Shown here: in pieces, positions 11,739-34,579 of the stretch
Layout: each line of letters opens with the position of its first letter
Numbering within the stretch: the first letter of the stretch is position 1
Assembly (NCBI GenBank): GCA_020692235.1
Contig: JAIMKU010000002.1
Coordinates: 43,039-86,446, forward strand
Origin: Hydrogenophilus sp.
GTDB taxonomy: Bacteria > Pseudomonadota > Gammaproteobacteria > Burkholderiales > Thiobacillaceae
Length of the DNA: 43,408 nucleotides
Direction of reading: 5' to 3'
Made by a program: the position numbers and the translations under genes
The notes under the pieces: generated by a model
Seen by the model: only the letters and a program-made list of their open reading frames with translations
What the model was told of the DNA's origin: nothing
Databases searched by the model: none

Positions 11739-11745
11739 GGTTGAG

Positions 11746-11925
11746 TGAGCCCCGCGTGCGTTGTCCGGCTAGCAATCCTGAACCCAGGGTTCAAGAGGGC
11801 CGCGACATACCGGCTTCGGGTACATGGACCAGGCCACGCGCACACCCGCCGGATGATTGTCGCTGCCACGCGGTTTACGCATCGGTTCAAAGAATACGCC
11901 GACCTCGCGAACGCGGCAGGGCTCA
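11746..11925 (-). ncRNA. ssrS: 6S RNA (RNA polymerase-binding regulatory RNA)
   Basis: The ~180-nt gap between zapA and the cyclo-ligase gene is where 6S RNA sits in gamma- and betaproteobacteria. Read on the minus strand, the ends pair: GAGCCC and CGCGT near the 5' end with ACGCG and GGGCTC at the 3' end, forming the closing stem. The 3' half has the hairpin CTTGAACCC/GGGTTCAGG (near 11777-11795), which matches the TTGAACC/GGTTCAA hairpin of E. coli 6S RNA. 6S RNA mimics an open promoter and sequesters sigma-70 polymerase in stationary phase. The 5' end overlaps the zapA stop codon; exact ends are estimated. Confidence 0.85.
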
Positions 11926-22104: not shown

Positions 22105-23304
22105 TCACCGGACCCAACTCATGGGGTCGAATGGTTGCCCTTGGCGGCGCAGTTCGAAATACAGGCCGGTTTCCTCCTGGCCGCCGGTGTCGCCAGTTGC
22201 GGCGATGACATCGCCCGCGTGGACAGTGTCTCCCGCCTGTTTATACAGACTTTCATTATTGCTGTACAGACTGAGGTAACCGCCGCCGTGGTCGACTATA
22301 AGCAGGTTACCGAAGCCCCTCAGCCAATCGGCAAACACCACTGCGCCGCTGGCTACCGTCCGGACCGGTTGGCCGGACTTGGTGCGGATGAACAAACCCT
22401 TCCAGGCGGGCCCACCGCCGGCCCTGGCCTGGCCGAAGCGGGCCAATAATTCACCCGCCACGGGCAGCGCCAGCTTGCCCTTGAGTGCGGCGAACTTGAG
22501 CCCCGCCAGGCTGGCATCGGCAACATTGGTGACTATTTTTCCGCCGCGCGGTTGGCGCGGCTTGGCAATTTTTCTGCTCTCGGCCAGGCGTTGCAGGCGT
22601 TTGATCAGCCTGCTCAGGCGGCCTTCATCCCTGACCAGGCTGCCGATTTGTTTGCGCTGTTGCCGCACCTGATCGGACAACTGGTTATAGGTGGACTTAC
22701 GCAGCCGCTTCTCCTTGTCCAGGGTTGCGCGTTGAGTGAGTTGGTTTTGTTTGATCTGTTCCAGGTCGGCCTTCCGGCTGCGGGTCTCGGTCTCTACCGC
22801 CGCGAGGCGACCTAGCGAGGTGTTGTGGGCACGGACCAAGCGCACCCTGGCCCGAACGATGTAGGCGTAATACTCCAGGTCGCGCTGGATCTCGCTCGGG
22901 TCGCGGCCGCTCAATGCCAGACGGGTTGCATCGTCGCTGCCCTGGCGATAGCGTTGCCGAAGCAGGGCGGCCAGTTGCTGCCGCTCGGTGTGCAATTGCA
23001 CCTTGGTCAAGCGGTGTTCTTGAGCCAGTTCGTCCAGGGACAGGCCTAGCCGCTGCTCCTTTTTTTGTAGCTCGATCAGGGCACGGTCGACGTCGGAAAT
23101 CTTACGTTCGGAATTGCGTAGCCCATCGGCGGCCTCAGAGCGGTCGGCCGAGGCGCGTTCCACCTCGTCCTTGAGCCTGGTGATGCGACTACGCAGGTCT
23201 TCCAATTCCTGTTGCTTGCCGTTGTCGGCCGGGCTGGCGATGCCCGGCAGCAGCAACAGCAGCAATAAGGCGCAGCCGCTAAGGCTCGGAATGGGCGGGC
23301 GCAT
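22105..23304 (-). CDS. envC: Murein hydrolase activator EnvC-like (degenerate LytM/M23)
   Basis: Secreted division factor that activates the amidases AmiA/AmiB at the septum. The 399-residue protein has a signal peptide (ALLLLLLLPGIASPA) and a long coiled coil (about 30-250). A C-terminal LytM domain (about 280-399) follows. The metal ligands are missing: the first His/Asp site reads WKGLFIRT, the usual 'YxH' site reads YLSLYSN and the terminal HxH reads LYFELRR. It therefore cannot be a zinc endopeptidase and matches the non-enzymatic EnvC type. The start overlaps the gpmI 3' end by 26 nt. Confidence 0.92.
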   Translation of the reverse strand: MRPPIPSLSGCALLLLLLLPGIASPADNGKQQELEDLRSRITRLKDEVERASADRSEAADGLRNSERKISDVDRALIELQKKEQRLGLSLDELAQEHRLTKVQLHTERQQLAALLRQRYRQGSDDATRLALSGRDPSEIQRDLEYYAYIVRARVRLVRAHNTSLGRLAAVETETRSRKADLEQIKQNQLTQRATLDKEKRLRKSTYNQLSDQVRQQRKQIGSLVRDEGRLSRLIKRLQRLAESRKIAKPRQPRGGKIVTNVADASLAGLKFAALKGKLALPVAGELLARFGQARAGGGPAWKGLFIRTKSGQPVRTVASGAVVFADWLRGFGNLLIVDHGGGYLSLYSNNESLYKQAGDTVHAGDVIAATGDTGGQEETGLYFELRRQGQPFDPMSWVR

Positions 23305-24844
23305 CGAGGCGCATCAGTGGATGGCCGGTCATCTCGCGGGGTTTCGGCAGGCCCATCATCGCCAACAACGTGGGTGCGATGTCTTCCAGGGCGCCAGTCT
23401 CGGCCAGATGCGCCGGGCGGCCGATATAGAGTAATGGCACCAGGTTGGTCGTGTGGGCTGTATGCGGCTGTTTATTGGCCAGGTCCAACATACATTCAGC
23501 ATTGCCGTGGTCGGCGGTTATGAGTATCTCGCCGCCGCTTGACTGCATGGCCTCCACTACCCGGCCCAGACAGATATCCAGGGCCTCGATGGCCTGTTTG
23601 GCGGCGGCGAAATTGCCGGTATGGCCGACCATGTCGGCATTGGCGTAGTTGCAGACGATGGCATCGTACTTACGGCCCTTGATCGCCTCGACCAACTTGT
23701 CGGTGACCTCGTAGGCGCTCATTTCCGGTTGCTGGTCGTAGTGGGCGACCGGCGGCGATTGCACCAGGACGCGGTCCTCGCCGGCATAGACGGTTTCCTC
23801 GCCGCCGTTGAAGAAATACGTGACGTGGGGAAACTTTTCGGTTTCGGCAATGCGCAATTGGCGCAGGCCTAGGTTGGCTATGTATTCGCCGAAACCGTTG
23901 TGGATACGCTCAGGCGGAAAGGCGACCGGCACCTTGAATTCGTCCGCGTAGTGAGTCAGGGTGCAGTAATCGGAAAGCTTGGGCACGTATTTGCGCTCGA
24001 AGCCATCGAAGTCCGGTTGCAGAAAGGCCTTGGTCAATTGCCGGGCGCGGTCGGAACGGAAATTCATGAATACCACGGCGTCGCCGTCCATCATGCGTGG
24101 CGCCGGCTGGCCCTGGGCGGCGATTACCGTCGGCTTGACGAACTCATCGGTTTCGCCGCGTTCATAGGCCATGGCCAGGCCCTCCAGCGCGGTAGGAGCG
24201 CGATATTCTGCTTCGCCCAGGGTAATCAGGTCATAGGCGACCTGGACCCGAGGCCAGCGCTTGTCACGGTCCATACCGTAATAACGGCCGCTGATCGTGG
24301 CGATGCAACCCTTGCCGAGCGCGTCCAGCTTGGCCTGTAGGCGTTCGAGATAGACATCGGCGCACTTTGGCGGCGTATCGCGGCCGTCCAGGAAGGCATG
24401 TACCGAAATCTTTTCGACGCCGCCGCGCACCGCCATGTCCAGCATGGCGTGGATGTGCCGTTCGTGGCTATGGACACCACCGTCGGAAAGCAGGCCGAAC
24501 ACATGCAAAGTGGAATTGTTGGACTTGACCCGCTTGATTAAGTCGACCAGGACATAGTTCTCGAAGAAATGGCCAGCCTCGATCGAACGGTCGATGCGGG
24601 TGAATTCCTGATAGACGACGCGGCCAGCGCCGATATTCAAATGGCCGACCTCGGAATTGCCCATCTGGCCCTTGGGCAGGCCCACGGCGGACTCAGAGGC
24701 ATGAATGAAGGTATGCGGACAGGTTGCCCAGAGCCGGTCCCAATTGGGTTTACGGGCAGCGGCGACGGCGTTGTCGGTGACCTCTTCGCGATAACCGAAA
24801 CCGTCGAGAATAATCAGGAGTACAGGCAGGACACTAGGTGGCAT
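23279..24844 (-). CDS. gpmI: 2,3-bisphosphoglycerate-independent phosphoglycerate mutase
   Basis: Mn2+-dependent glycolytic/gluconeogenic mutase of the alkaline phosphatase superfamily, 521 residues. The N-terminal metal site is LLIILDGFGYRE. The phosphoserine loop is LPKGQMGNSEVGHLNIGAGR, with Ser64 as the likely phospho-Ser. Later motifs HTHAFLDGRDTPP-like (SVHAFLDGRDTPP), NFRSDRARQLT and ITADHGNAECM hold further metal ligands. It is the first gene of gpmI-envC-ctpA. Its promoter must lie in the 138-nt region shared with divergent arsR. Confidence 0.97.
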   Translation of the reverse strand: MPPSVLPVLLIILDGFGYREEVTDNAVAAARKPNWDRLWATCPHTFIHASESAVGLPKGQMGNSEVGHLNIGAGRVVYQEFTRIDRSIEAGHFFENYVLVDLIKRVKSNNSTLHVFGLLSDGGVHSHERHIHAMLDMAVRGGVEKISVHAFLDGRDTPPKCADVYLERLQAKLDALGKGCIATISGRYYGMDRDKRWPRVQVAYDLITLGEAEYRAPTALEGLAMAYERGETDEFVKPTVIAAQGQPAPRMMDGDAVVFMNFRSDRARQLTKAFLQPDFDGFERKYVPKLSDYCTLTHYADEFKVPVAFPPERIHNGFGEYIANLGLRQLRIAETEKFPHVTYFFNGGEETVYAGEDRVLVQSPPVAHYDQQPEMSAYEVTDKLVEAIKGRKYDAIVCNYANADMVGHTGNFAAAKQAIEALDICLGRVVEAMQSSGGEILITADHGNAECMLDLANKQPHTAHTTNLVPLLYIGRPAHLAETGALEDIAPTLLAMMGLPKPREMTGHPLMRLDAPAHSEP

Positions 24845-24982
24845 AAGGATATTCTATCTTAGAAAACGGTAGCACTTCATGCGCCAAGTATTTTAGTATA
24901 TTTGAATACGACTTAGAATTGACGTCGCCGTTGCCAAAGCCTTTGGTGTCGGCACCTGTTGCCTTACTAGAGACACTCGACC
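24845..24982. promoter_or_regulatory. Divergent gpmI/arsR control region with a TA-rich dyad
   Basis: 138 nt between divergent starts. A locally AT-rich stretch holds an imperfect dyad, GTATT (24888-24892) and AATAC (24905-24909), separated by 12 nt. ArsR repressors usually bind such TA-rich dyads and autoregulate. No consensus sigma-70 promoter is evident, although TTGACG lies at 24919-24924. The operator role is inference. Confidence 0.35.
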
Positions 24983-25303
24983 ATGACCATGGAGTCCATC
25001 ACGGCACTAATCGATAACGACGATCATATCGAACAGGCCTCGCGCGCGCTGAAGGCGATGTCGCATCCGCTACGACTCAAGATACTCTGCGTTCTGGGCG
25101 ACAATGAAGTCAGCGTCCAGGGCATCGTCGACCGTGTCGGCACCTCCCAGAGCAATATCTCCCAGCATCTCGCCATCCTGCGCGACAAGGGAGTGCTACG
25201 CACCCGCAAGGATGCCAACCGGGTGTTCTACCGCGTGGCCGATACCCGTACCTTGCAACTCATCAGCATCATGCGGGATGTGTTCTGCGGCTTCACCAAA
25301 TAG
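24983..25303 (+). CDS. ArsR-family repressor with the SqrR/BigR-type cysteine pair
   Basis: A 106-residue winged-helix regulator with SHPLRLKILCVLGDNEVSV, recognition helix TSQSNISQHLAILRDKGVL and wing TRKDANRVFYRVAD. It has exactly two cysteines: Cys36 in helix 2 (RLKILC) and Cys102 near the C-terminus (RDVFC). Their 66-residue spacing equals that of the persulfide-sensing pairs Cys41/Cys107 of SqrR and Cys42/Cys108 of BigR, in the same local contexts. The classic arsenic (ELCVC) and SmtB metal motifs are absent. It lies upstream of an RND/DUF2892/rhodanese operon, separated by 2 kb of mobile DNA. Persulfide sensing is inference; the ArsR fold is certain. Confidence 0.93.
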   Translation: MTMESITALIDNDDHIEQASRALKAMSHPLRLKILCVLGDNEVSVQGIVDRVGTSQSNISQHLAILRDKGVLRTRKDANRVFYRVADTRTLQLISIMRDVFCGFTK

Positions 25304-25352
25304 GGAACTACGGTTTATAGCCGTCACATTCAATCAAAACCAAATAAAAAAT

Positions 25353-25366
25353 GTGGTCTGACCCTG
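25353..25366. repeat. REP-like motif GTGGTCTGACCC (solitary copy)
   Basis: GTGGTCTGACCC at 25353-25364 is the same core found at 25691, 27280 and, degenerate, at 25785 and 26496. Here it abuts the broken 3' end of the rha fragment and is in inverted orientation to the 25691 copy. It is a presumed substrate of the RAYT transposase at 26551. Confidence 0.7.
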
Positions 25367-25367
25367 T

Positions 25368-25484
25368 TTATTCCTGAAGCACATGGTCATGCCGCTTGCC
25401 GAAACTCTTGGCGACGATGCGGGAAGTGGTGAGGGAATGCTGGTGGCCGGCGAGAGCGCCGGTGAAGACTTGAACAGAGGTCAT
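25368..25484 (-). pseudogene. Truncated phage Rha-type regulatory protein (N-terminal fragment)
   Basis: A 38-codon minus-strand frame with a good ribosome site (AAGGA, 9 nt before the ATG). It starts MTSVQVFTGALAG and continues SLTTSRIVAKSFGKRHDHVL, the N-terminal DNA-binding helix of the phage pRha family ('SrdVAerFgKrHdnVL'). The rest is missing: after VLQE a TAA occurs exactly where the REP-like motif begins. A structured leader lies upstream (25485-25690), including the hairpin CCCACG/CGTGGG near 25511-25527. I read it as a prophage relic cut by repeat insertion. Confidence 0.65.
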
Positions 25485-25687
25485 GATTACGGTTCCTTAT
25501 CAGGGAGAGCCCACGAAGACCGTGGGTGGTCAGGCGCTGATAACCTGCCGTAGACAGGCGGAGTTATTCCCCCTTGCGGGGTCTTGTATTCCTCGCGCGC
25601 CCGGCCATTGATGGAACCAATGGACGTAAAAAAACCACGACTGCGGGCGCGGATAACCGCTACGGACAGGGTGTTATCAGTAGCGTA

Positions 25688-25800
25688 ATAGGGGTCAGAC
25701 CACGGTTTCTTTGCGGCGATGCGAGCGCGACGAGGTGAACTCGGGTTTGCAGGGAATGGGAGCGGTCTAGTAGAGATGAGCAAACCGTGGTCCCCCTATC
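25688..25800. repeat. REPIN-like element: two inverted REP motifs about 75 nt apart
   Basis: The left copy is ATAGGGGTCAGACCACGG (from 25688) followed by TTT. The right copy, AAACCGTGGTC then CCCCTATC (25782-25799), is its reverse complement apart from a 3-nt gap. The pair would fold into a long hairpin enclosing GC-rich spacer. Paired inverted REPs (REPINs) are the form typically dispersed by RAYT transposases. No gene is seen inside. Confidence 0.7.
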
Positions 25801-25842
25801 GCTATTAATAGCTTCGTTAGACATCACCCCCAAAACGGCACC

Positions 25843-25872
25843 TTGACATACCATTATTGGTATATTCATAAT
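25843..25872 (+). promoter_or_regulatory. Promoter and palindromic operator of the toxin-antitoxin pair
   Basis: The -35 TTGACA (25843-25848) is perfect. CATAAT (25867-25872) lies 18 nt downstream. Between them is a perfect dyad, ATACCA (25848-25853) and TGGTAT (25858-25863) around TTAT, placed where an Xre antitoxin would block polymerase. The toxin ATG begins only 5 nt after the -10 box, so the mRNA would be leaderless or nearly so. Confidence 0.75.
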
Positions 25873-25877
25873 GCGGC

Positions 25878-26162
25878 ATGTGGGAAATCGAAGAACACCA
25901 TCGCGTCGACAAACAGCTTTCCGGCTCTGTTCCTATTGAAGTTCTGAAGCGGTACGAAAAATGGAAAGATATTGCCAGTATCTCTGGGCCACAGGGATTG
26001 CGCCTCATCAAGGGTTTTTACGATGAGGCTCTGTCAGGTGAATGGAAAGGTCATCGTTCCTCCCTGTTGGGGCTCCAGTGGCGGGTGATTTACCGCGTCG
26101 TTGCCAAGGTATTGCTGATTCAAGTTGTTCAAGTAACTGCCCACGATTACAGGAGGCCATGA
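25878..26162 (+). CDS. RelE/HigB-type toxin (mRNA interferase family)
   Basis: A 94-residue protein of the RelE/ParE/HigB fold. The N-terminus is MWEIEEHHRVDKQL. The middle is GLRLIKGFYDEALSGEWKGHRSSLLG and the C-terminal sheet is QWRVIYRVVAKVLLIQVVQVTAHDYRRP; the basic residues and terminal His-Asp-Tyr resemble ribosome-dependent RNases. The antitoxin gene follows after 1 nt, the toxin-first order of higBA. The start lies 5 nt from the -10 box. Base composition is AT-richer than neighbouring genes, consistent with recent acquisition. Confidence 0.85.
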   Translation: MWEIEEHHRVDKQLSGSVPIEVLKRYEKWKDIASISGPQGLRLIKGFYDEALSGEWKGHRSSLLGLQWRVIYRVVAKVLLIQVVQVTAHDYRRP

Positions 26163-26163
26163 T

Positions 26164-26424
26164 ATGAAAGAGTTTCGCCCCGCAAAAAAACGAGTTGAAG
26201 TCTCGGTGGGAGAGTCTGTTCGTATTTTGCGTGAACTCCAAGAGCTGAGCCAAAGCCAGTTCTCTGAACTTACGGGCATCCCTCAAGCCACTATCTCCGC
26301 CATCGAAAACGGCAGAATAAATTTGGGTGTCGAGCGCGCAAAGGTTTTTGCTCGAGCCCTTCAGTGCCATCCTGCAGTGCTCGTCTTTCCCGGCTGGGAA
26401 GTTTCACTTGCGCGTGTAGCCTAA
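26164..26424 (+). CDS. Xre-family antitoxin (HigA-like)
   Basis: An 86-residue helix-turn-helix protein. The N-terminal ~20 residues are basic. The HTH spans about 20-75, with VRILRELQELSQSQFSELTGIPQATISAIENGRINLG as its key region. The tail (VLVFPGWEVSLARVA) presumably touches the toxin. Paired with the preceding toxin, it should neutralise it and repress the operon through the dyad at 25848-25863. Whether the pair is functional is unknown, but both frames are intact. Confidence 0.88.
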   Translation: MKEFRPAKKRVEVSVGESVRILRELQELSQSQFSELTGIPQATISAIENGRINLGVERAKVFARALQCHPAVLVFPGWEVSLARVA

Positions 26425-26490
26425 CCCTACGTTCAAGTTCGCGGCCCTTTGGTCGCTGGGACGTAATTAGGCAGATGCGCGTAATTAGGA

Positions 26491-26507
26491 GGGCCCTGAC
26501 CACGGTT
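26491..26507. repeat. REP-like motif upstream of the RAYT transposase gene
   Basis: GGGCCCTGACCACGGTTTT is a degenerate copy of the GGGGTCAGACCACGGTTT core. It is inverted relative to the copy at 27276-27296. The two bracket the transposase gene (26551-27261), the classical RAYT arrangement. Confidence 0.65.
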
Positions 26508-26550
26508 TTAATGCTAGGATTTTTACCTCTTCCGTCCCGAGGCGTCATCC

Positions 26551-27261
26551 ATGCCACGCCGTCCCCGTCTGGTCCTGCAAGGCGTTCCGTTGCACCTGAT
26601 CCAGCGCGGGAATAACCGCCAGGCTTGTTTTTTTGCGGAGGAGGATTACCGCCTCTATCTGCAATGGTTGTCCGAGTACGCAGGCAAGACCGGATGTCGC
26701 GTTCACGCATATGTGTTGATGACCAACCATGTCCATCTGCTAATTTCGGCAGAAAAGGCGGTGGCGCCGGGGGCCTTGATGAAGGCACTGGGACAGCGGT
26801 ATGTGCAGTATGTGAATCGCGTCTATCGGCGTAGCGGCACGTTGTGGGAGGGCCGCTTCCGCTCCTGCCCGATTCAGGAGGACGCGTACTTGCTGGCCTG
26901 TCAGCGTTACATCGAACTCAATCCGGTGCGGGCTGAAATGGTGGCGCATCCGGGGCAATACAACTGGTCGAGCTATCGCGCCAATGCACAGGGTGAGGAA
27001 AATGCGCTGATTCGAGCGCACGGGCTTTACGACGCCTTGGGACTGGATGCGCCGGGTCGGCAGGCGGCCTACCGGGAGTTGTTCCGGCATGAATTGGAGC
27101 CGGGGCTTGTGGACCAGATTCGGCGAGCCACCCATGGCAACTTTGTGCTGGGAGACGAACGTTTTGCGGCAGAGGTGGCAGCGGTAGTCGGTCGGCGAGT
27201 CCTGCCGGGAAAATCGGGCAGGCCGCGTAAGGCGGTGGAGCCGGTATCGGGGGGCGTTTGA
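26551..27261 (+). CDS. REP-associated tyrosine transposase (RAYT, Y1_Tnp domain)
   Basis: A 236-residue single-domain HUH/Y1 nuclease related to IS200/IS605 TnpA. The N-terminus is MPRRPRLVLQGVPLHLIQRGNN. The metal-binding HUH motif is MTNHVHLL, the WEGRFRS signature is typical of RAYTs and the likely nucleophile Tyr lies in CQRYIELNPVRAE. WSSYRAN and a basic C-terminus follow. It is flanked by inverted REP-like motifs, and further copies lie between 25353 and 25800. The frame is intact, so it may be active. RAYTs are usually single-copy domesticated genes that spread REP/REPIN elements. Confidence 0.93.
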   Translation: MPRRPRLVLQGVPLHLIQRGNNRQACFFAEEDYRLYLQWLSEYAGKTGCRVHAYVLMTNHVHLLISAEKAVAPGALMKALGQRYVQYVNRVYRRSGTLWEGRFRSCPIQEDAYLLACQRYIELNPVRAEMVAHPGQYNWSSYRANAQGEENALIRAHGLYDALGLDAPGRQAAYRELFRHELEPGLVDQIRRATHGNFVLGDERFAAEVAAVVGRRVLPGKSGRPRKAVEPVSGGV

Positions 27262-27275
27262 CAAATCGTGAAATA

Positions 27276-27296
27276 AACCGTGGTCTGACCCCGGTT
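27276..27296. repeat. REP-like motif downstream of the RAYT gene
   Basis: AACCGTGGTCTGACCCCGG contains the intact GTGGTCTGACCC core, inverted relative to the copies at 25691 and 26491. It lies 15 nt after the transposase stop and only ~14 nt before the palindrome controlling the RND operon. Confidence 0.7.
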
Positions 27297-27309
27297 TACC
27301 CTAATGTGT

Positions 27310-27331
27310 AATATTAGAGTCCGCTAATATT
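27310..27331 (+). promoter_or_regulatory. TA-rich palindrome upstream of the RND efflux operon
   Basis: AATATTAG (27310-27317) and CTAATATT (27324-27331) are perfect reverse complements with a 6-nt spacer. TAATAT hexamers inside each arm could serve as a -10 box. BigR was described as binding a TA-rich palindrome overlapping the -10 region of its target promoter, so this is the best candidate operator for the ArsR protein at 24983. The link is inference. The -35 region would lie in REP sequence. Confidence 0.6.
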
Positions 27332-27378
27332 CCGGGCCTGGGTTCAGGTCTGGGAGACAGTTCCAAAGGAGCATGGAT

Positions 27379-28764
27379 ATGGTGTTGTTTACGCCGCGCC
27401 GGGTAATCTTGGTCATCACGTTGGCCTTGGCAGCGTCGGCTGCCCGGTCGGAAACTTTCGATTTCAAGCAGTGCGTCGGCATTGCCCTGGCGCAAAATCC
27501 AGACCTGGTTGTGGCCCAGACCCAGGTCAAACAGGCTGAGGCCGGGTTGCGTCAGGCCCAGGCCAATTACTGGCCGAAATTGAATCTGTCGATGACCGCT
27601 ACCCGAAGTAACGACGCATTGAATGCCTTTGGTCTGAAACTGGGACAGCGCGGCGCCACGTTCGGCGACATCGGCTTTCGCGATTTCGATTCGACCAATC
27701 CGAATATCCTGACCGTCGCCCCGCATAACCTTAACCAGCCCGGCGCGGTAACCAACTACAACCCGCGCGCCGAGTTGCTCATCCCGGTCTACAACGGCGG
27801 CCTGGTGGCTGACTACGTTAAACAGGCCCAGTCTTACGTCAAGGCGGCCCAGGCGGGTGACCGACTGGCCCGTCAGCAACTGATCGATCAGGTACTGATG
27901 GCCTACCAGGGCGTGCATACTGCCCGAGCCTACGTCCGGGTTACCGGCGAGGCCGAGGCCGCCGCCGAGGAATATGCGCGGATCAGCGACCGGCTTCTAA
28001 AACAAGGCATGGCGGTAAAAAGCGACCTGCTCAGCGCCGAGGTCAATCTGGCGGACATGAAACTGAAATCGGTCTCGGCCCGCAATGCCGAGGCCGCCGC
28101 GCTCGACCAGCTCCATCTGCTGCTGGGTAAACCGCTGACCGAGCCGATCGAGGTCGGCGCGCCGGTCATGCCGACCATGCTGGTGGGCGATGTCGCCAGC
28201 TTGCGGCAGACGGCCCTGGCCAACCACCCGGGCCTGCAGGCATTGCGTAACCAGGCCGACGGTGCGGGCGCCGCCGTGGCCGCCGCTCGCGCCGGCAAAC
28301 TGCCGCAATTCAACGTCATGCTGCGCCAGGACTGGAACGGCAAGACGCCGGGTTTCGATGCCGGTTCCTATACTGCGGCGGGTGTATTGTCGTGGACCGC
28401 CTTCGACGGCGGCGGCAGCCGGGCCGCGGTCGATCGGGCCGAAGCCCAGCGCCTGGAGGCGGTCGCCAAGCACGACCAAGCCAGCAACGGCATCGCCTAC
28501 AAAGTGGGCGACGCCAAACGTCAGGCGCAGGAGGCGGAGGATAAGGTCAAGGCCCGTAAGTTGGCCCTGGACCTGGCCGTCGAGGCCCAGCGGCTGGTCA
28601 AGAAACGCTATGAGAATGGACTGGGCACGTTAATTGAGCTGCTGGCCGCCCAGGCTCAACTGGACAAGGCCCGCGCCGACCTGGTGGCCGCCGACTACGA
28701 ACAGGCTGTGCAGCGCGCGGCATTGAAACTCGCCGTGGGCGTACTCGACGCCGATCAATTGTGA
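27379..28764 (+). CDS. TolC-family outer membrane efflux protein
   Basis: Outer-membrane channel of a tripartite RND pump, 461 residues. The signal peptide (MVLFTPRRVILVITLALAAS) ends at AARS. Two OEP repeats of coiled helices follow, with CVGIALAQNPDLVVAQTQVKQAEAGLRQAQANYWPKL-type periodicity and a final helix KKRYENGLGTLIELLAAQAQL. I chose the ATG at 27379, 7 nt after AAAGGAG; the ATG at 27373 is only 1 nt from it. First gene of the efflux operon; the adaptor gene starts 11 nt after its stop. Confidence 0.93.
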   Translation: MVLFTPRRVILVITLALAASAARSETFDFKQCVGIALAQNPDLVVAQTQVKQAEAGLRQAQANYWPKLNLSMTATRSNDALNAFGLKLGQRGATFGDIGFRDFDSTNPNILTVAPHNLNQPGAVTNYNPRAELLIPVYNGGLVADYVKQAQSYVKAAQAGDRLARQQLIDQVLMAYQGVHTARAYVRVTGEAEAAAEEYARISDRLLKQGMAVKSDLLSAEVNLADMKLKSVSARNAEAAALDQLHLLLGKPLTEPIEVGAPVMPTMLVGDVASLRQTALANHPGLQALRNQADGAGAAVAAARAGKLPQFNVMLRQDWNGKTPGFDAGSYTAAGVLSWTAFDGGGSRAAVDRAEAQRLEAVAKHDQASNGIAYKVGDAKRQAQEAEDKVKARKLALDLAVEAQRLVKKRYENGLGTLIELLAAQAQLDKARADLVAADYEQAVQRAALKLAVGVLDADQL

Positions 28765-28775
28765 GGAACGAACCG

Positions 28776-29840
28776 ATGAACAAGCTCAACCCTATCTTAA
28801 TCTTACTTGCCCTCGCCCTGAGCCTGTCAGGCTGCGGCGGCGGCCATGAACAAAAACCAGTGGCCGTGGCTGGCCGCACGGTTGATGCCGGGGTTGTGAC
28901 CTTGCAGCCGGTCGAGAGCGCGGTCTTCAGCGCGATGCCCGGCGTCGTGGTGGCCCAGGAATCGGTTCAGGTAGCCTCGCGTCTGATGGGCTACATCAAA
29001 AATATCGCGGTGGCCGAAGGCCAGTCGGTCAAGGCCGGCCAGCGCCTGTTCACCATCGATCCGCTGGACATTGAGAGCGGCGTTGCGCAAGCCCGGCTGG
29101 GCCTGGATCAGGCCGAGAAGGCCATGCAGGACGCCAAGGCCGACTATGCCCGTTTCGATGCCCTGTACAAGGATGAGGTGGTCAGCCGCCAGCAGTATGA
29201 AAAAATGAAGCTGAACTACGACATCGCCGTGTCCCGCGCCGCTCAGGCCAGGGCTGGCCTGCAAACCGCCCACGGCCAGATGCGCTATGCCGTGGTGAGC
29301 TCGCCCATCAATGGCGTGGTAGTACAGAAATTTGCCAATCAGGGCGACATTGCCGCGCCGGGGCATCCCATCCTGCTGGTGGAAAATCAGTCCCATCTAC
29401 AGGTACAAACCTCGGTGTCCGAGGAGATTTATTCCGGCCTGAGTCTAGGCGAACCGATCCAGGTGGAGATCGATGGCCAAGCTCAGGTGCTGACCGCCAA
29501 GGTCGCTCGGCTGTCGCCGGCAGCCGACCCGGTGGCGCACACCCATCTGGTTAAGCTCGATCTGAGCGCACCCCGTTTGCGTAGCGGCGCCTTCACCCGG
29601 GTGCTGTTTCCAACCGGTCGGCAGACCGTTTTGAAGGTCCCGCAGGAAGCACTGCTAAACCGGGCCGGCATCACCGGCGTATTCGTGCTGGATGACAAAG
29701 GCGTTGCCGACTATCGCATGGTCCGCGCCGGACGGACCGACAGCGGCCAGGTCGAGATATTGTCGGGACTGTCCGCCGGCGACCGGGTAGTCACCCGCAA
29801 CGCATCGGCGGTCAATAACGGCGACCTGGTGCGGGGCTGA
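28776..29840 (+). CDS. RND efflux periplasmic adaptor lipoprotein (MFP subunit)
   Basis: A 354-residue membrane-fusion protein linking pump and outer-membrane channel. It has lipobox LSGC with acylated Cys20. The biotinyl-lipoyl halves surround a hairpin: GYIKNIAVAEGQSVKAGQRLFTIDP, then the coiled helices (KAMQDAKADYARFDALYKDEVVSRQQYEK), then SPINGVVVQKFANQGDIAAPG. A beta-barrel and membrane-proximal domain complete it. The ATG at 28776 has GAGGA 8 nt upstream; an upstream GTG at 28761 is less likely. The next gene starts 3 nt after its stop. Confidence 0.93.
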   Translation: MNKLNPILILLALALSLSGCGGGHEQKPVAVAGRTVDAGVVTLQPVESAVFSAMPGVVVAQESVQVASRLMGYIKNIAVAEGQSVKAGQRLFTIDPLDIESGVAQARLGLDQAEKAMQDAKADYARFDALYKDEVVSRQQYEKMKLNYDIAVSRAAQARAGLQTAHGQMRYAVVSSPINGVVVQKFANQGDIAAPGHPILLVENQSHLQVQTSVSEEIYSGLSLGEPIQVEIDGQAQVLTAKVARLSPAADPVAHTHLVKLDLSAPRLRSGAFTRVLFPTGRQTVLKVPQEALLNRAGITGVFVLDDKGVADYRMVRAGRTDSGQVEILSGLSAGDRVVTRNASAVNNGDLVRG

Positions 29841-29843
29841 ACA

Positions 29844-32800
29844 ATGAGCGACAGCGGACACCAAAGCCCGATGAACATCGCCGGCAAGCTGGCCCGGGCC
29901 TTTTTAACCTCCAAGCTGACCCTGCTGACCATCGTCGCGGTGACCCTGACCGGCACCCTGGCGCTGATGGTTACGCCGCGCGAATACAACCCCCAAATCG
30001 TCGTGCCGGCGGCCAATATCATTGTCGCCAAGCCTGGCGCGACCCCGGCCGAGGTGGAGAACCTTATCGTCAAGCCGCTGGAAGCGATCATGAATGCCCA
30101 GTCCGGGGTCGATCACACCTTCGGCTATGCGACCAACGACTTCGGCGTGGTGACCATCCAGTTCAAGGTCGGCCAGAAGCAGGAAGACAGCCTGGTCAAG
30201 CTATACAACCAGTTGATGCAAAACATCGACCGCATCCCGTCGGGGGCCACGCAGCCCCTGGTCAAGCCGATCAACGTTGACGATGTGCCGATCATGACCC
30301 TGACTCTGGCGACATCGGCTTATGACGATTACACCTTGCGCGAGGTGGCCAACCGTATCCTGGAACAGTTGCGCAATGTCCCCGGTGTCTCGTTCACCCA
30401 GGTGGTCGGCGGCCGTAAGCACATGATTAATGTCTGGCTCGACGCCCAGCGACTGGACGCCGCCGGCCTGACCCTGGACAAGGTCGATAAGATGCTGCGC
30501 GGCAGCAATGTCTCGGCGCCGCTGGGCGACCTGGTTCAGGATAACCGGGCCCGGCCATTGCGACTGTCCGGGTTCCTCGGCTCGGCCGACGAAGTCGGCA
30601 AGATCGTGGTGGGCGTGTCCCAGATGAACCGTCCGGTCTACCTCAAGGATGTGGCGCGGATCGAGGACGGCCCCGGCGAGTTGGAAGAAACCACCCGGTT
30701 TGCCTGGGGACCTGCCTCCGACAAGGCAGGTCACGGTGAGAACCCGGCCGTGACCTTGGCCATCGCCAAGAAGGCTGGCGCCAATGCCGTGGTGGTGGCC
30801 GACGCGGTACTGACCAAGCTGGCGGACCTGAAGCGACAGGCGATTCCGGCCGGCATAGAGGTCGCGGTGACCCGCAACGACGGTGAGAAGGCCAACGAGG
30901 CAGTCAACGAGCTGGTCTCGCATCTGGGCATCGCCATCGGTTCGGTAGTGCTTATCCTGGTGATCTTCCTGGGTTGGCGCGAGGCCGGCATCGTTACCCT
31001 GACGGTGCCGTTGATCCTGTTCGTAGTCCTGGCGATTGGACTGGCCTTCGGCCAGACGATCAACCGCATTACCTTGTTTGCGCTGATCCTGTCGCTTGGT
31101 TTGCTGGTCGACGCGGCTATCGTGGTGATCGAGAATATCCACCGCCACCTGCACCACGGCAGCGGCGGCAAGGATTTTGGCAGCGTGCTGGTCGAGGCTA
31201 CCAACGAGATCGGCAACCCGACCAATGTCGCCACCATCGCCGTGATCCTTGCCTTCATCCCCATGGCCTTTGTGACTGGCATGATGGGGCCGTTTATGGC
31301 GCCGATCCCGTTCAACGTGCCGGTCGCCATGATCGCCTCCATCGTCATCGCCTACATGGTCGTGCCCTGGGCCGCCAACATGTGGCTGGCCAAGAAAGCG
31401 GTCTGCGAAGAGGCCGCGCGCAAGCCCAGCCTGGAAGATGAAGGCGCATCGGAGCAAGACCCGCTGCATCGCGCCTACGTGGCCGTGCTTACACCGCTGA
31501 TTGCCTCCCCGGCCAAACGCAACGCGATCTTTCTGGTGGTGCTGGCGTTGCTCCTGGGCGCCATGCTGATGCCGGCCTGGCAGTTCATCCGGCCAGCGGG
31601 TCTGAATGGACCGCTGTCGATGCTGGGCGTCGAACTGAAGATGTTGCCCAACGACAATACCAACACCATGCTGCTGGAGGTTGACCTGCCTGCCGGTACC
31701 GCCTTGGCGGCAACCAATCAGGTGGCGCGCGAGGTCGGCCGAGTATTGGCCAAGCATCCCCATGTGACCGACTACCAGACCTTCCTGGGCATGACCGCGC
31801 CGATCGACTTCGCCGCCCTGGTGCGCGGCGACCTGATTAAAAAGGGCCAGAACCTGGCCCAGATTCGAGTCAACCTGATCAACAAGCACGAGCGCGATAG
31901 TTCGTCGCACGAGATCGCCAACGAGTTGAATGGGCAGTTGATGGCGCTACGCAAGCGCTTTCCAACGGCCAAGATCAAGCTCTATGAAACGCCGCCCGGG
32001 CCGCCGGTTCAGGCCCAGGTCCTGGCCGAGCTGTATGGCCCGGACTATGACCAGCTACGTGCGGCGGCGGCCATCGTGGAAACGGATTTCGAGGCCATCT
32101 ACGGCATGACCAACGCCGACAATTCGGTTACCGCCAACGCCGAGGCTTTCGACATCGAGGTCGATACCGAGAAGGCCCTGTTGTCCGGTGTGGCGCCGGG
32201 CCAGGTGGCCGAGCTGCTGCGCAACTATGTTTCCGGTTTCAATATCGGCAGCCTGCACGCGGTCGACGCGCGCGAGCCGGTGGACATCCAGGTGCGTCTG
32301 CCGCGCGAGTTGCGCGCCACGCCCGATACCCTGCTCAGCCTGCGGATCGCCAACCCACAAGGCAAGCAGATACCGTTATCGGCCATCGCCACGGTGACCA
32401 AGGTGACCACCGCCAAGCCCGTTTACGACAGGGACCAACACCCGATGGTCATGGTCGGCGGCGAGTTGCTCAAGTCCAGCCCGGTCTACGCCGTGCTGGC
32501 CCTGGACAAGATGCTCGACGGCCAGAAGCTGAGCTTGGGCAAAGGCAAGGGGGATGTGTCCTTCGCCACCGGCAACCTAGGCTTTACCCAGGCCAGCCCC
32601 AAGGATGTAGTGGAAAACACACTGCTCTGGGGTGGCGAGATGCGCTTGACCCTGGATGTGTTCCGCGACCTCGGTTCCGCCTTCATTATCGCGATCATCC
32701 TGATCTATCTGGTGCTGGTCGGTTACTACAAGTCCTTCGCCCTGCCGTTCATCGTCATGGGCGCGATCCCACTGACCCTGGTCGGCGTATTCCCCGGTCA

Positions 32801-33146
32801 CTGGGCGACTGGCCAGGCCTTTACCGCCACCTCGATGATCGGCGTCATCGCCCTGGCCGGCATCGTGGTGCGTAACTCGTTGCTGCTGATTGACTTCATC
32901 CTGGATTACCGCAAGCAGGGTTATGACCTGCAAACGGCGGTCATCGAGGCCGGCGCAGTGCGTTTCCGTCCCATCCTGCTGACTGCCCTGGCGATCATCC
33001 TGGGCTCGGCCATCATGATTACCGATCCGGTCTTCGGGGGCTTGGCGGTTTCGCTTATTTTCGGTACCTTTGCCTCCACGGCCTTGACCCTGGTGGTGAT
33101 CCCACTGGTCTATTACCTGTGGCAGCGCCGTCAACAAACCGCATAA
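29844..33146 (+). CDS. RND-superfamily inner membrane efflux pump, substrate unknown
   Basis: An 1100-residue AcrB-fold proton antiporter with two sets of TM helices and two large periplasmic loops. PTPAEVENLIVKPLE-type porter motifs are present (PGATPAEVENLIVKPLE). In TM4 the motif is LVDAAIVVIENIHRH: Asp423 is kept, but the second Asp of the AcrB 'LVDDAI' pair is Ala424. In TM10 the AcrB Lys940 equivalent is Arg1010 (GIVVRNSLLLIDF). 'VDAA' is usual in heavy-metal (CzcA/CusA) pumps, yet the CusA methionine triad is not evident. It is therefore an atypical RND type. Neighbours DUF2892 and rhodanese suggest a sulfur-related substrate; this is inference. Confidence 0.92.
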   Translation: MSDSGHQSPMNIAGKLARAFLTSKLTLLTIVAVTLTGTLALMVTPREYNPQIVVPAANIIVAKPGATPAEVENLIVKPLEAIMNAQSGVDHTFGYATNDFGVVTIQFKVGQKQEDSLVKLYNQLMQNIDRIPSGATQPLVKPINVDDVPIMTLTLATSAYDDYTLREVANRILEQLRNVPGVSFTQVVGGRKHMINVWLDAQRLDAAGLTLDKVDKMLRGSNVSAPLGDLVQDNRARPLRLSGFLGSADEVGKIVVGVSQMNRPVYLKDVARIEDGPGELEETTRFAWGPASDKAGHGENPAVTLAIAKKAGANAVVVADAVLTKLADLKRQAIPAGIEVAVTRNDGEKANEAVNELVSHLGIAIGSVVLILVIFLGWREAGIVTLTVPLILFVVLAIGLAFGQTINRITLFALILSLGLLVDAAIVVIENIHRHLHHGSGGKDFGSVLVEATNEIGNPTNVATIAVILAFIPMAFVTGMMGPFMAPIPFNVPVAMIASIVIAYMVVPWAANMWLAKKAVCEEAARKPSLEDEGASEQDPLHRAYVAVLTPLIASPAKRNAIFLVVLALLLGAMLMPAWQFIRPAGLNGPLSMLGVELKMLPNDNTNTMLLEVDLPAGTALAATNQVAREVGRVLAKHPHVTDYQTFLGMTAPIDFAALVRGDLIKKGQNLAQIRVNLINKHERDSSSHEIANELNGQLMALRKRFPTAKIKLYETPPGPPVQAQVLAELYGPDYDQLRAAAAIVETDFEAIYGMTNADNSVTANAEAFDIEVDTEKALLSGVAPGQVAELLRNYVSGFNIGSLHAVDAREPVDIQVRLPRELRATPDTLLSLRIANPQGKQIPLSAIATVTKVTTAKPVYDRDQHPMVMVGGELLKSSPVYAVLALDKMLDGQKLSLGKGKGDVSFATGNLGFTQASPKDVVENTLLWGGEMRLTLDVFRDLGSAFIIAIILIYLVLVGYYKSFALPFIVMGAIPLTLVGVFPGHWATGQAFTATSMIGVIALAGIVVRNSLLLIDFILDYRKQGYDLQTAVIEAGAVRFRPILLTALAIILGSAIMITDPVFGGLAVSLIFGTFASTALTLVVIPLVYYLWQRRQQTA

Positions 33147-33394: not shown

Positions 33395-33435
33395 GGTAGA
33401 ATCCCGGCGTTCCTGATTACATGGAGGTAAATGGG

Positions 33436-33843
33436 ATGGAATTCGCCCAACAAAACATCTGGTTGATCCTGTTGATGCTGGTATCCGGTTACATGCTGGT
33501 CGGTGGCAGCTTGATGGGCCGCCTGTCCGGCGTCAAGCAGGTTAGTCCCCAGGACGCGGTCAGGCTGTTCAACAACGACGCGCTCATGCTCGACGTGCGC
33601 GAGAGTTCGGAATTTGTCGACGGCCACATCCCGAAATCCAAGCACATCCCGCTCAGCCAGTTGAAAGGCCGCCTGGCCGACCTGGAAAAGTACAAGGACA
33701 AGCCCATCGTTGCGGTCTGCCGTAGCGGCAACCGCTCCGGCCATGCCTGCGGCATATTGCGCAAGGCCGGGTTTGAGGATGTCAGCAACCTGAGCGGTGG
33801 CATCATGGCCTGGGAACAGGCCGGTTTCCCCAAGGAGCGCTGA
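33436..33843 (+). CDS. Membrane-anchored rhodanese (sulfurtransferase)
   Basis: A 135-residue single-domain rhodanese. An N-terminal helix (about 8-26, WLILLMLVSGYMLVGG) anchors it. The catalytic loop is VCRSGNR with persulfide-forming Cys95, and the domain ends GGIMAWEQAGFPKE. GGAGG 8 nt before the ATG at 33436 fixes the start; an in-frame ATG at 33421 lies upstream of that box. In betaproteobacteria a rhodanese of this kind usually precedes grxC-secB-gpsA, so it belongs to the conserved block but directly follows DUF2892. It could carry sulfane sulfur delivered through the membrane partner. Confidence 0.93.
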   Translation: MEFAQQNIWLILLMLVSGYMLVGGSLMGRLSGVKQVSPQDAVRLFNNDALMLDVRESSEFVDGHIPKSKHIPLSQLKGRLADLEKYKDKPIVAVCRSGNRSGHACGILRKAGFEDVSNLSGGIMAWEQAGFPKER

Positions 33844-33844
33844 G

Positions 33845-34102
33845 ATGCCCCACGTCAAGATGTACTGCACCGCAACCTGCCCCTACTGCCAGATGGCCGA
33901 GCGGCTGCTCAGCAATAAGGGCGTCACTGAGATCGAAAAGATCCGCATCGACCTCGATCCGGTGCAGCGCGACACGATGATCGAAATTACCGGCCGCCGC
34001 ACCGTGCCGCAGATTTTCATCGGCGACCATCATGTCGGCGGCTTCGACGACCTGTCGGCGCTCGACTCGGGCGGCGCTCTCGACCCCTTGCTGGCGGCTT
34101 GA
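33845..34102 (+). CDS. grxC: Glutaredoxin 3
   Basis: An 85-residue dithiol glutaredoxin, active site Cys12-Pro-Tyr-Cys15 (TATCPYCQM) plus an extra Cys8. The GSH-binding features are RRTVPQIFIGDHHVGGFDDL. It uses glutathione, whose synthesis genes lie at 36666-38908. The ATG at 33845 directly follows the rhodanese stop, with GAGCGC and GAG upstream; the longer in-frame start at 33797 is unlikely. Co-transcribed with the rhodanese. Confidence 0.95.
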   Translation: MPHVKMYCTATCPYCQMAERLLSNKGVTEIEKIRIDLDPVQRDTMIEITGRRTVPQIFIGDHHVGGFDDLSALDSGGALDPLLAA

Positions 34103-34156: not shown

Positions 34157-34579
34157 ATGGAACTGGTTTGCCCTGACTGTGGCGCCATCAACCGGGTCCC
34201 GGCCGAGCGTCTCGGCGATAACCCGAAATGCGGCAAGTGCGGCGGCGCAGTCCTGCCTGCCGCGCCGATCGCACTGACCGCCGCCACGTTCGAGCGTTTT
34301 ATCGGCCGCGACGGTCTGCCCGTACTGGTCGATTTCTGGGCGCCCTGGTGCGGTCCATGCAAGCAGTTCGCCCCCACCTTCAGCCAGATGGCCGGCCAAT
34401 ATGGCGGCCAGGTGCGCTTTGTGAAGGTTGACACCGAGGCCGAGCAGGGCCTGGCCGCGCGCTACAACATCCGTAGCATCCCCACCTTGGCGCTATTCAA
34501 GGGTAGTCGTGAACTGGATCGGGTCTCCGGCGCCCTGGCCGGGCCGCAGTTGGCTGCCTGGCTGCGTCAGCATCTGTGA
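34157..34579 (+). CDS. trxC: Thioredoxin 2 (zinc-binding TrxC)
   Basis: 140 residues. The N-terminal zinc ribbon uses Cys5, Cys8, Cys25 and Cys28 (CPDC and CGKC), which defines TrxC. The thioredoxin domain has the active site Trp64-Cys65-Gly-Pro-Cys68 and cis-Pro in SIPTLALF. TrxC is an oxidative-stress thioredoxin. AGGAG lies 8 nt before the ATG. It sits between grxC and secB, a place where I do not expect trxC in the usual rhodanese-grxC-secB-gpsA order. No OxyR site was identified. Confidence 0.95.
   Translation: MELVCPDCGAINRVPAERLGDNPKCGKCGGAVLPAAPIALTAATFERFIGRDGLPVLVDFWAPWCGPCKQFAPTFSQMAGQYGGQVRFVKVDTEAEQGLAARYNIRSIPTLALFKGSRELDRVSGALAGPQLAAWLRQHL

Follow-up and report, generated by a model that had tools for sequence, protein, structure and literature searches.

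What does the small repressor of the ArsR type encoded at 24983..25303 (forward strand, 106 aa) sense, and which genes does it govern? The question arises within a window of 43,408 nucleotides from Hydrogenophilus sp., for which an original prediction had proposed that the protein is a persulfide sensor of the SqrR/BigR kind. What is known of dithiol sensors in the ArsR family comes largely from a handful of model operons, and the subfamily described here brings a testable regulon that would join export, a cytoplasmic sulfane-sulfur relay and a small RNA family. The genome carries dsrA (477 bits against a cut-off of 393), and the bacterium is presumably a sulfur oxidizer.

The protein and its cysteine pair

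Translation bears out that the reading frame holds exactly two cysteines, Cys36 and Cys102; histidines occur at 15, 28 and 62 only. The winged-helix fold of the ArsR family is indicated by a PF01022 match of 44.8 bits and by a predicted monomer model (pLDDT 86.7) with the core H-H-H-H-E-E-H, in which Cys36 is placed in the second core helix (29-38), helix 3 spans 45-52 and Cys102 ends the last helix, helix 5 (88-102). The original prediction numbers the sensing cysteines Cys41/Cys107 in SqrR and Cys42/Cys108 in BigR. The BigR/SqrR-like spacing that had been claimed is recovered in the alignments: both cysteines fall on those of BigR (3pqj) without a gap, the SqrR pair coincides with the BigR pair equally ungapped and matches the same two columns in a multiple alignment, and an ungapped alignment with the HlyU structures 4k2e and 3jth likewise sets Cys36 and Cys102 on the HlyU cysteines. 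YgaV differs by a one-residue insertion, with the cysteine columns still matching; its Cys31 and Cys98 lie 67 residues apart (PMC9774250), so that a spacing of 66, found also between Cys50 and Cys116 of sHdrR (PMC12423496), is not universal. In the accessible text of PMC10509353, the RSS cluster of ArsR proteins (SSN cluster 4) is defined by cysteines in helices 2 and 5, which is where the model puts this pair.

Both cysteines are kept in 75 of the 80 best-matching of at least 579 relatives. The five exceptions within those 80, all from Chromobacteriaceae (L059, L060, L065, L070, L074), have serine in place of Cys36 and, belonging to one clade, count as one event; their loci are also without a linked rhodanese or glutaredoxin and represent natural single-cysteine variants. 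Conservation of the pair is not a matter of chance, because in a class-level sample of 31 ArsR proteins (the two others of the same genome and the best PF01022 match from each of 29 class-level genomes) 13 have cysteine in the two columns and the remaining 18 in neither of them. Among the matches listed, the subfamily occurs in genomes of the Thiobacillus, Hydrogenophilales and Gallionellaceae type.

Among proteins in the PDB, the closest by sequence are BigR (2e-18), HlyU (2e-17), YgaV (2e-16) and SqrR (7e-14), all of them reported persulfide sensors, and the metal sensors SmtB (1e-6) and CzrA (1e-5) are far weaker. Fold comparison of the model ranks CzrA (Z 15.7) slightly above HlyU (14.6) and YgaV (14.5), with BigR (13.9) and SqrR (13.2) following, and therefore cannot separate sensor types within the family. 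A broad NCBIfam ArsR/SmtB 'metalloregulator' model matches at 84.8 bits (cut-off 55); assignment to the BigR equivalog (NF040642) was rejected, at 80.2 bits against a cut-off of 155. SmtB-type metal sensors carry an Asp/His ligand set in helix 5. The CxC cysteines of metal-sensing ArsR proteins and the two proximal cysteines of the H2O2-sensing RexT group are both placed in helix 3 in the available text of PMC10509353. Here, neither helix 3 nor helix 5 contains a cysteine or histidine save Cys102, in agreement with the predicted absence of ArsR and SmtB metal motifs. A sensor of the RexT type was rejected on the absence of cysteine at 45-52, and a metal sensor on the missing helix-3 CxC and helix-5 ligands together with low similarity to metal sensors.

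For the phylogenetic check proposed with the original prediction, a tree of ArsR proteins was built from 86 columns, the two cysteine columns left out; in it the subfamily forms a clear clade (28 rows, support 99/93), and the deep branches are unstarred. AU tests reject placement of the subfamily with E. coli ArsR (p 0.015) and, at p 0.05, reject neither a grouping with the RSS references (p 0.31) nor one with SmtB/NmtR/CzrA (p 0.098); in the best tree the five RSS references stand opposite the subfamily and the metal sensors on an unstarred branch (55/94). Phylogeny thus neither confirms nor refutes the sensor type, and the case rests on similarity, cysteines and regulon. The genome encodes three PF01022 proteins in all, the two others being without the cysteine pair and placed with E. 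coli ArsR and Rv0081.

The locus, its insert and the palindromes

Divergent from arsR lies gpmI (23279..24844, reverse strand), encoding phosphoglycerate mutase, and then envC. On the other side, a mobile insert with approximate boundaries at 25304..27300 holds a RelE-like gene (25878-26162), an XRE-type gene (26164-26424), a REP-associated transposase-like gene (26551-27261) and GGTCTGACC repeats at 25353, 25691 and 27280. Beyond it follow, all on the forward strand, genes for a TolC-like outer-membrane efflux protein (27373..28764), an RND periplasmic adaptor (HlyD/RND_mfp, 28761..29840), an RND permease (ACR_tran, 29844..33146), a YgaP-like transmembrane protein (PF11127, 33119..33394), a rhodanese with an N-terminal hydrophobic stretch (33421..33843), a glutaredoxin (33797..34102, the real start probably being later than the listed GTG) and thioredoxin TrxC (34157..34579). 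Elsewhere in the window, a 6S RNA was found at 11745-11925 on the reverse strand (RF00013, 56.2 bits). The claim that arsR sits beside sulfur-handling genes is only loosely true of the window itself, where the immediate neighbours are gpmI and the insert and the rhodanese lies 8 kb off behind the RND pump; it fits the relatives L004 and L005, in which the insert is absent, 130 bp take the place of the 2 kb that part arsR from the pump, and arsR adjoins the RND/rhodanese operon.

The E. coli chromosome has gpmM-envC running divergently from yibN-grxC-secB-gpsA and lacks an arsR between the two, and the arsR of the relatives occupies a gpmM/yibN junction of this type. Identities between the window and E. 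coli are 57% for gpmI (to gpmM), 29% for envC, 36% for the rhodanese (to YibN), 53% for the glutaredoxin (to GrxC) and 43% for gpsA. Among those loci of the best 80 of at least 579 relatives that have enough sequence, a divergent gpmI lies within 800 bp of arsR in 54 of 74, while 50 of 60 have a rhodanese no more than 8.5 kb downstream and 30 of 60 an RND permease within that distance; in many Rhodocyclales loci (e.g. L056, L063, L068) the rhodanese follows arsR directly. Rhodaneses or sulfurtransferases together with transporters are the neighbourhood that marks the RSS group. The RND proteins encoded next to arsR in L017, L018, L020 and similar loci are about 39% (permease) and about 28% (adaptor) identical to those of the window, and given this low identity under a kept gene order the pump may have been exchanged.

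Between gpmI and arsR lies op1 (24888..24909), a 22-bp imperfect palindrome GTATTTTAGTATATTTGAATAC presumed to be the autoregulatory operator. It is letter-identical in the upstream regions of 9 of the best 80 of at least 579 relatives, at varying distance to the start codon; no second match with fewer than three mismatches occurs in the own genome, no clear -35/-10 pair was found around it, and no clear copy stands upstream of E. coli ygaV (14 of 22 positions match). With 44 bp between op1 and gpmI and 74 bp between op1 and arsR, action on gpmI is possible too. The 130-bp gap between arsR and the pump in L004 and L005 contains a near-perfect palindrome, of which the window retains a copy just past the insert and directly upstream of the pump operon (op2, 27310..27331, AATATTAGAGTCCGCTAATATT), a presumed operator of a class that the pump-bearing relatives carry as well. 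That the insert had cut the pump off from its repressor was rejected in part, as op2 is intact and only the -35 region is changed, reading TTGACA in L005 and a repeat-supplied CTGACC in the window.

A palindromic motif learned from 41 arsR-pump gaps (260 bp downstream of arsR in the 40 of 80 loci that bear a pump, and 172 bp before tolC of the window) reads TATATTAGaaTAttCTAATATA, with a log-likelihood of 453 versus 36-45 in three shuffled sets. Its ATTA-N8-TAAT has the half-site spacing of the SqrR/YgaV operator, reported as ATTC-N8-GAAT (PMC9774250), with one base changed per half, and binding by ArsR is predicted. Nulls were single-base shuffles for op1 and motif learning, and dinucleotide-block shuffles for the scans of arsR-upstream, rhd and small RNA regions. 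With this motif op1 scores 4.6, above the 95% level of the null (2.5) and below its 99% level (7.9); over the arsR upstream regions of the window and the best 80 of at least 579 relatives, 57 of 81 exceed the 95% level and 30 of 81 the 99% level. A palindrome-constrained search of the arsR upstream regions alone settled in a different register, AaTATTtTAaAATAtT, and was set aside; the pump-gap motif was therefore used for scanning elsewhere.

Sites before rhd-tusA-dsrE2 and a small RNA gene

Scanning the own genome (1.8 Mb) with the 16-base pattern AATATTAG-N6-CTAATATT, at up to three mismatches, returned four sites versus two for the reversed control: op2, a site starting 41 bp ahead of a rhodanese gene behind which lie tusA and dsrE2, a site on the promoter of an RF02278 small RNA and, the poorest, one by a gene of the C_GCAxxG_C_C type. 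A looser 12-base pattern with up to two mismatches gave 12 sites versus 40 in the control, that is, no enrichment in this genome, and consequently only the best own-genome sites are credible. The poorest site adjoins a gene that shares 79% identity with a C_GCAxxG_C_C redox protein gene of genome G127, which has its own site; these redox genes following a palindrome (L121:1005-1541 in the own genome, L209:985-1485 in G127) are possible regulon members. In the own rhd, own small RNA and L005 pump promoters, the -35 box (TTGAAA, TTGACA and TTGACA, respectively) is followed after 17 bp by a -10 box that overlaps the putative operator, an arrangement that suits a repressor. Checks of this placement covered, by script, the own rhd and small RNA promoters, the small RNA promoter of genome G116 and the pumps of three loci from relatives and, on visual inspection, 14 aligned small RNA promoters.

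The rhodanese was found in 32 of the 36 genomes that carry the subfamily arsR. Thirty of these 32 matches, each with tusA and dsrE2, were scanned, and in all 30 the motif scores higher upstream than in any of 900 shuffles, the palindrome starting 37-52 bp before rhd in 29 of them and 137 bp before it in the other. The mean score is 22.1, and none of 300 permutations of the motif columns gives a mean above 16.5, although single permutations place up to 23 of the 30 regions at 12 or above, versus all 30 observed. An order-level draw of 60 genomes included 18 with the rhodanese (own included) and 19 loci, of which 12 score at least 12.5 and 7 below 0, the cut having been set after the scores were seen, with the remaining loci all negative. 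The ArsR ortholog (E <1e-40, both cysteines in every case) is present in 12 of the 17 order-level genomes other than the own, and the rhd site in 11 of those 12 versus none of the five without it (Fisher p 0.001), the genomes being related and the counts of sites and co-occurrence therefore not independent. Restricting the count to the best rhd copy of each genome leaves 10 of the 12 with the site (p 0.003); G092 has ArsR and no rhd site, and G079 has the site only before a second rhodanese copy. Across 10 of the 36 genomes the short pattern finds 60 sites versus 7 for the reversed control. Among the 20 of these 60 that were inspected, palindromes also precede genes with no known tie to sulfur (SBP_bac_11, aminotransferase class IV, cytochromes, Pfam-less proteins), as chance matches or candidate regulon members, and no peroxidase gene stands beside any of these few. 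Genomes G090 (L201), G105 (L200) and G078 (L198) hold a different ArsR domain, within a long open frame that also matches rhodanese, and in G090 this frame adjoins rhd-tusA-dsrE2.

The RF02278 match (Betaproteobacteria_toxic_sRNA) of the own genome scores 56.2 bits against a gathering threshold of 50 (L119:1571-1636); its gene region, G000:C2:35732-35865 (L119), has the palindrome on the -10 box and stands before argC. In several relatives the RF02278 gene precedes a gene for a pentapeptide-repeat protein; that this gene lies near several palindromes is better accounted for by its small RNA neighbour. The family is matched in 34 of 36 genomes with the subfamily arsR (29 above the cut-off) and, in the order-level set, in 13 of 18 (10 above). 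Scanning covered the 47 of 57 matches that had a locus, 45 from ArsR-carrying and two from ArsR-less genomes: the motif in the promoter region exceeds the 99% level of the null in 43 of the 45 copies and its maximum in 28, whereas the ArsR-less copies, only two to compare, score 4.9 and -15.8. Against column-permuted motifs the mean is 17.0 versus at most 14.5 in 300 permutations, with single permutations placing up to 28 of 45 regions at 12 or above versus 39 observed.

In the accessible parts of the published account, RF02278 is a growth-inhibiting, CU-rich small RNA (PMC5688073, PMC7011215), with a double hairpin and CU-rich stretches and a name taken from growth inhibition in E. coli (PMC5688073); a promoter with an ArsR-linked palindrome on its -10 box departs from that account. 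The open-licence literature searched, as far as its text was available, ties neither RF02278 nor the rhd-tusA-dsrE2 genes of these bacteria to an ArsR regulator, names no regulator of RF02278 and holds no joint link of such a regulator with both.

A proposed regulon, its rivals and known systems

The conserved cysteine pair, the lack of metal ligands, the recurrent palindrome with its placement and the co-occurrence of rhd site and ArsR are computed observations, and from them we infer, with a probability of roughly 0.75, a sulfane-sulfur-responsive ArsR repressor that binds the palindrome and controls arsR itself, the RND pump/YgaP-like/rhodanese operon, the Rhd-TusA-DsrE2 relay and the small RNA. 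In a host with dsrA, a dithiol repressor of the SqrR/BigR/YgaV kind would in its reduced form bind the AT-rich palindrome ATATTAG-N6-CTAATAT on or by the -10 box and block RNA polymerase. As sulfane sulfur (persulfides, polysulfides) accumulates, a polysulfide bridge would form between Cys36 and Cys102 within one subunit, and the bridged dimer would leave the DNA, with derepression of its putative targets: arsR, the TolC-HlyD-RND pump with the YgaP-like protein and rhodanese, rhd-tusA-dsrE2 and the RF02278 RNA. Rhd-TusA-DsrE2 would hand sulfane sulfur onward within the cell, a cytoplasmic relay that probably supplies dissimilatory sulfur oxidation. Given the -10 boxes that overlap the operator and the cysteine pair, derepression by sulfane sulfur is the most likely mechanism. 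The persulfide-sensor reading that started this analysis thus finds support, at the level of sequence comparison, in the top matches, the missing metal ligands and the sulfane-sulfur genes of the predicted regulon. The odds stand about even for the further proposal that one persulfide-responsive ArsR protein governs both the sulfane-sulfur relay (Rhd-TusA-DsrE2 with the export pump) and the RF02278 'toxic' RNA. If it is true, sulfur overload also reaches a post-transcriptional arm, and in sulfur-oxidizing Betaproteobacteria an orphan RNA family acquires both a signal and a regulator.

An identical dithiol architecture would equally suit a redox sensor whose signal in the cell is mainly oxidants (H2O2, disulfides, quinones) or haem and not sulfane sulfur. 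SqrR structures with diamide and with a disulfide are on record, haem binding is reported for YgaV and SqrR in the available text of PMC9774250, and glutaredoxin and thioredoxin genes lie near; however, SqrR, BigR and HlyU are described as unreactive to peroxides and disulfides (PMC10509353, accessible text), and the predicted regulon contains sulfurtransferases, with no peroxidase among the few sites inspected. We regard such a signal as unlikely. It is less likely again that the palindrome belongs to another regulator, with ArsR binding its own promoter alone or nothing. ArsR binding to the palindrome is itself a prediction, op1 departs from the motif, and some order-level genomes have other ArsR-type genes near rhodanese genes, but the two other PF01022 proteins of the own genome are without the cysteine pair, the motif tracks the ArsR ortholog, and it exceeds the 95% level in the 57 of 81 arsR upstream regions (window and best 80 of at least 579 relatives). 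It is very improbable that the protein senses metal or arsenic, in the manner of SmtB/ArsR, and drives an RND metal pump: the helices that would hold the ligands contain no cysteine or histidine save Cys102, SmtB and CzrA are far weaker by sequence, grouping with E. coli ArsR is rejected and rhd-tusA-dsrE2 belongs to the predicted regulon, all of which outweighs the adjacent RND pump, the 84.8-bit metalloregulator match, the p of 0.098 for SmtB/NmtR/CzrA and the first place of CzrA in the fold list.

Sulfane-sulfur ArsR proteins, rhodanese and RND neighbourhoods and control of tusA by SoxR are already known (PMC12423496, PMC10451225, PMC10509353), rhodaneses and RND pumps having been listed beside such regulators in the available text of PMC12423496 and PMC10451225. 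The repressor proposed here resembles SoxR and sHdrR of Hyphomicrobium denitrificans, sulfane-sulfur ArsR repressors of sulfur-oxidation genes including tusA; those are, however, alphaproteobacterial and have Sox and sHdr targets (PMC12423496, PMC10451225, accessible text), and the main text of PMC12423496, as available, contains neither 'sRNA' nor 'small RNA' (0 occurrences). With SqrR of Rhodobacter capsulatus and BigR of Xylella and Acinetobacter it shares the cysteine pair, the fold and, by prediction, control of sulfur genes, but it falls under the NCBIfam BigR cut-off and its predicted targets differ. No persulfide dioxygenase or sulfide:quinone oxidoreductase was found among the window proteins scanned. 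A further close system is YgaV-YgaP of E. coli, an ArsR repressor with a cysteine pair whose gene adjoins ygaP and whose reported operator, ATTC-N8-GAAT (PMC9774250), has the half-site spacing of the palindrome. YgaP, the source of the PF11127 name, combines a rhodanese with a membrane domain, whereas here the membrane part and the rhodanese are separate genes; unlike those of E. coli, they stand behind an RND pump at the gpmI/yibN-grxC locus, and the predicted regulon extends to rhd-tusA-dsrE2 and a small RNA.
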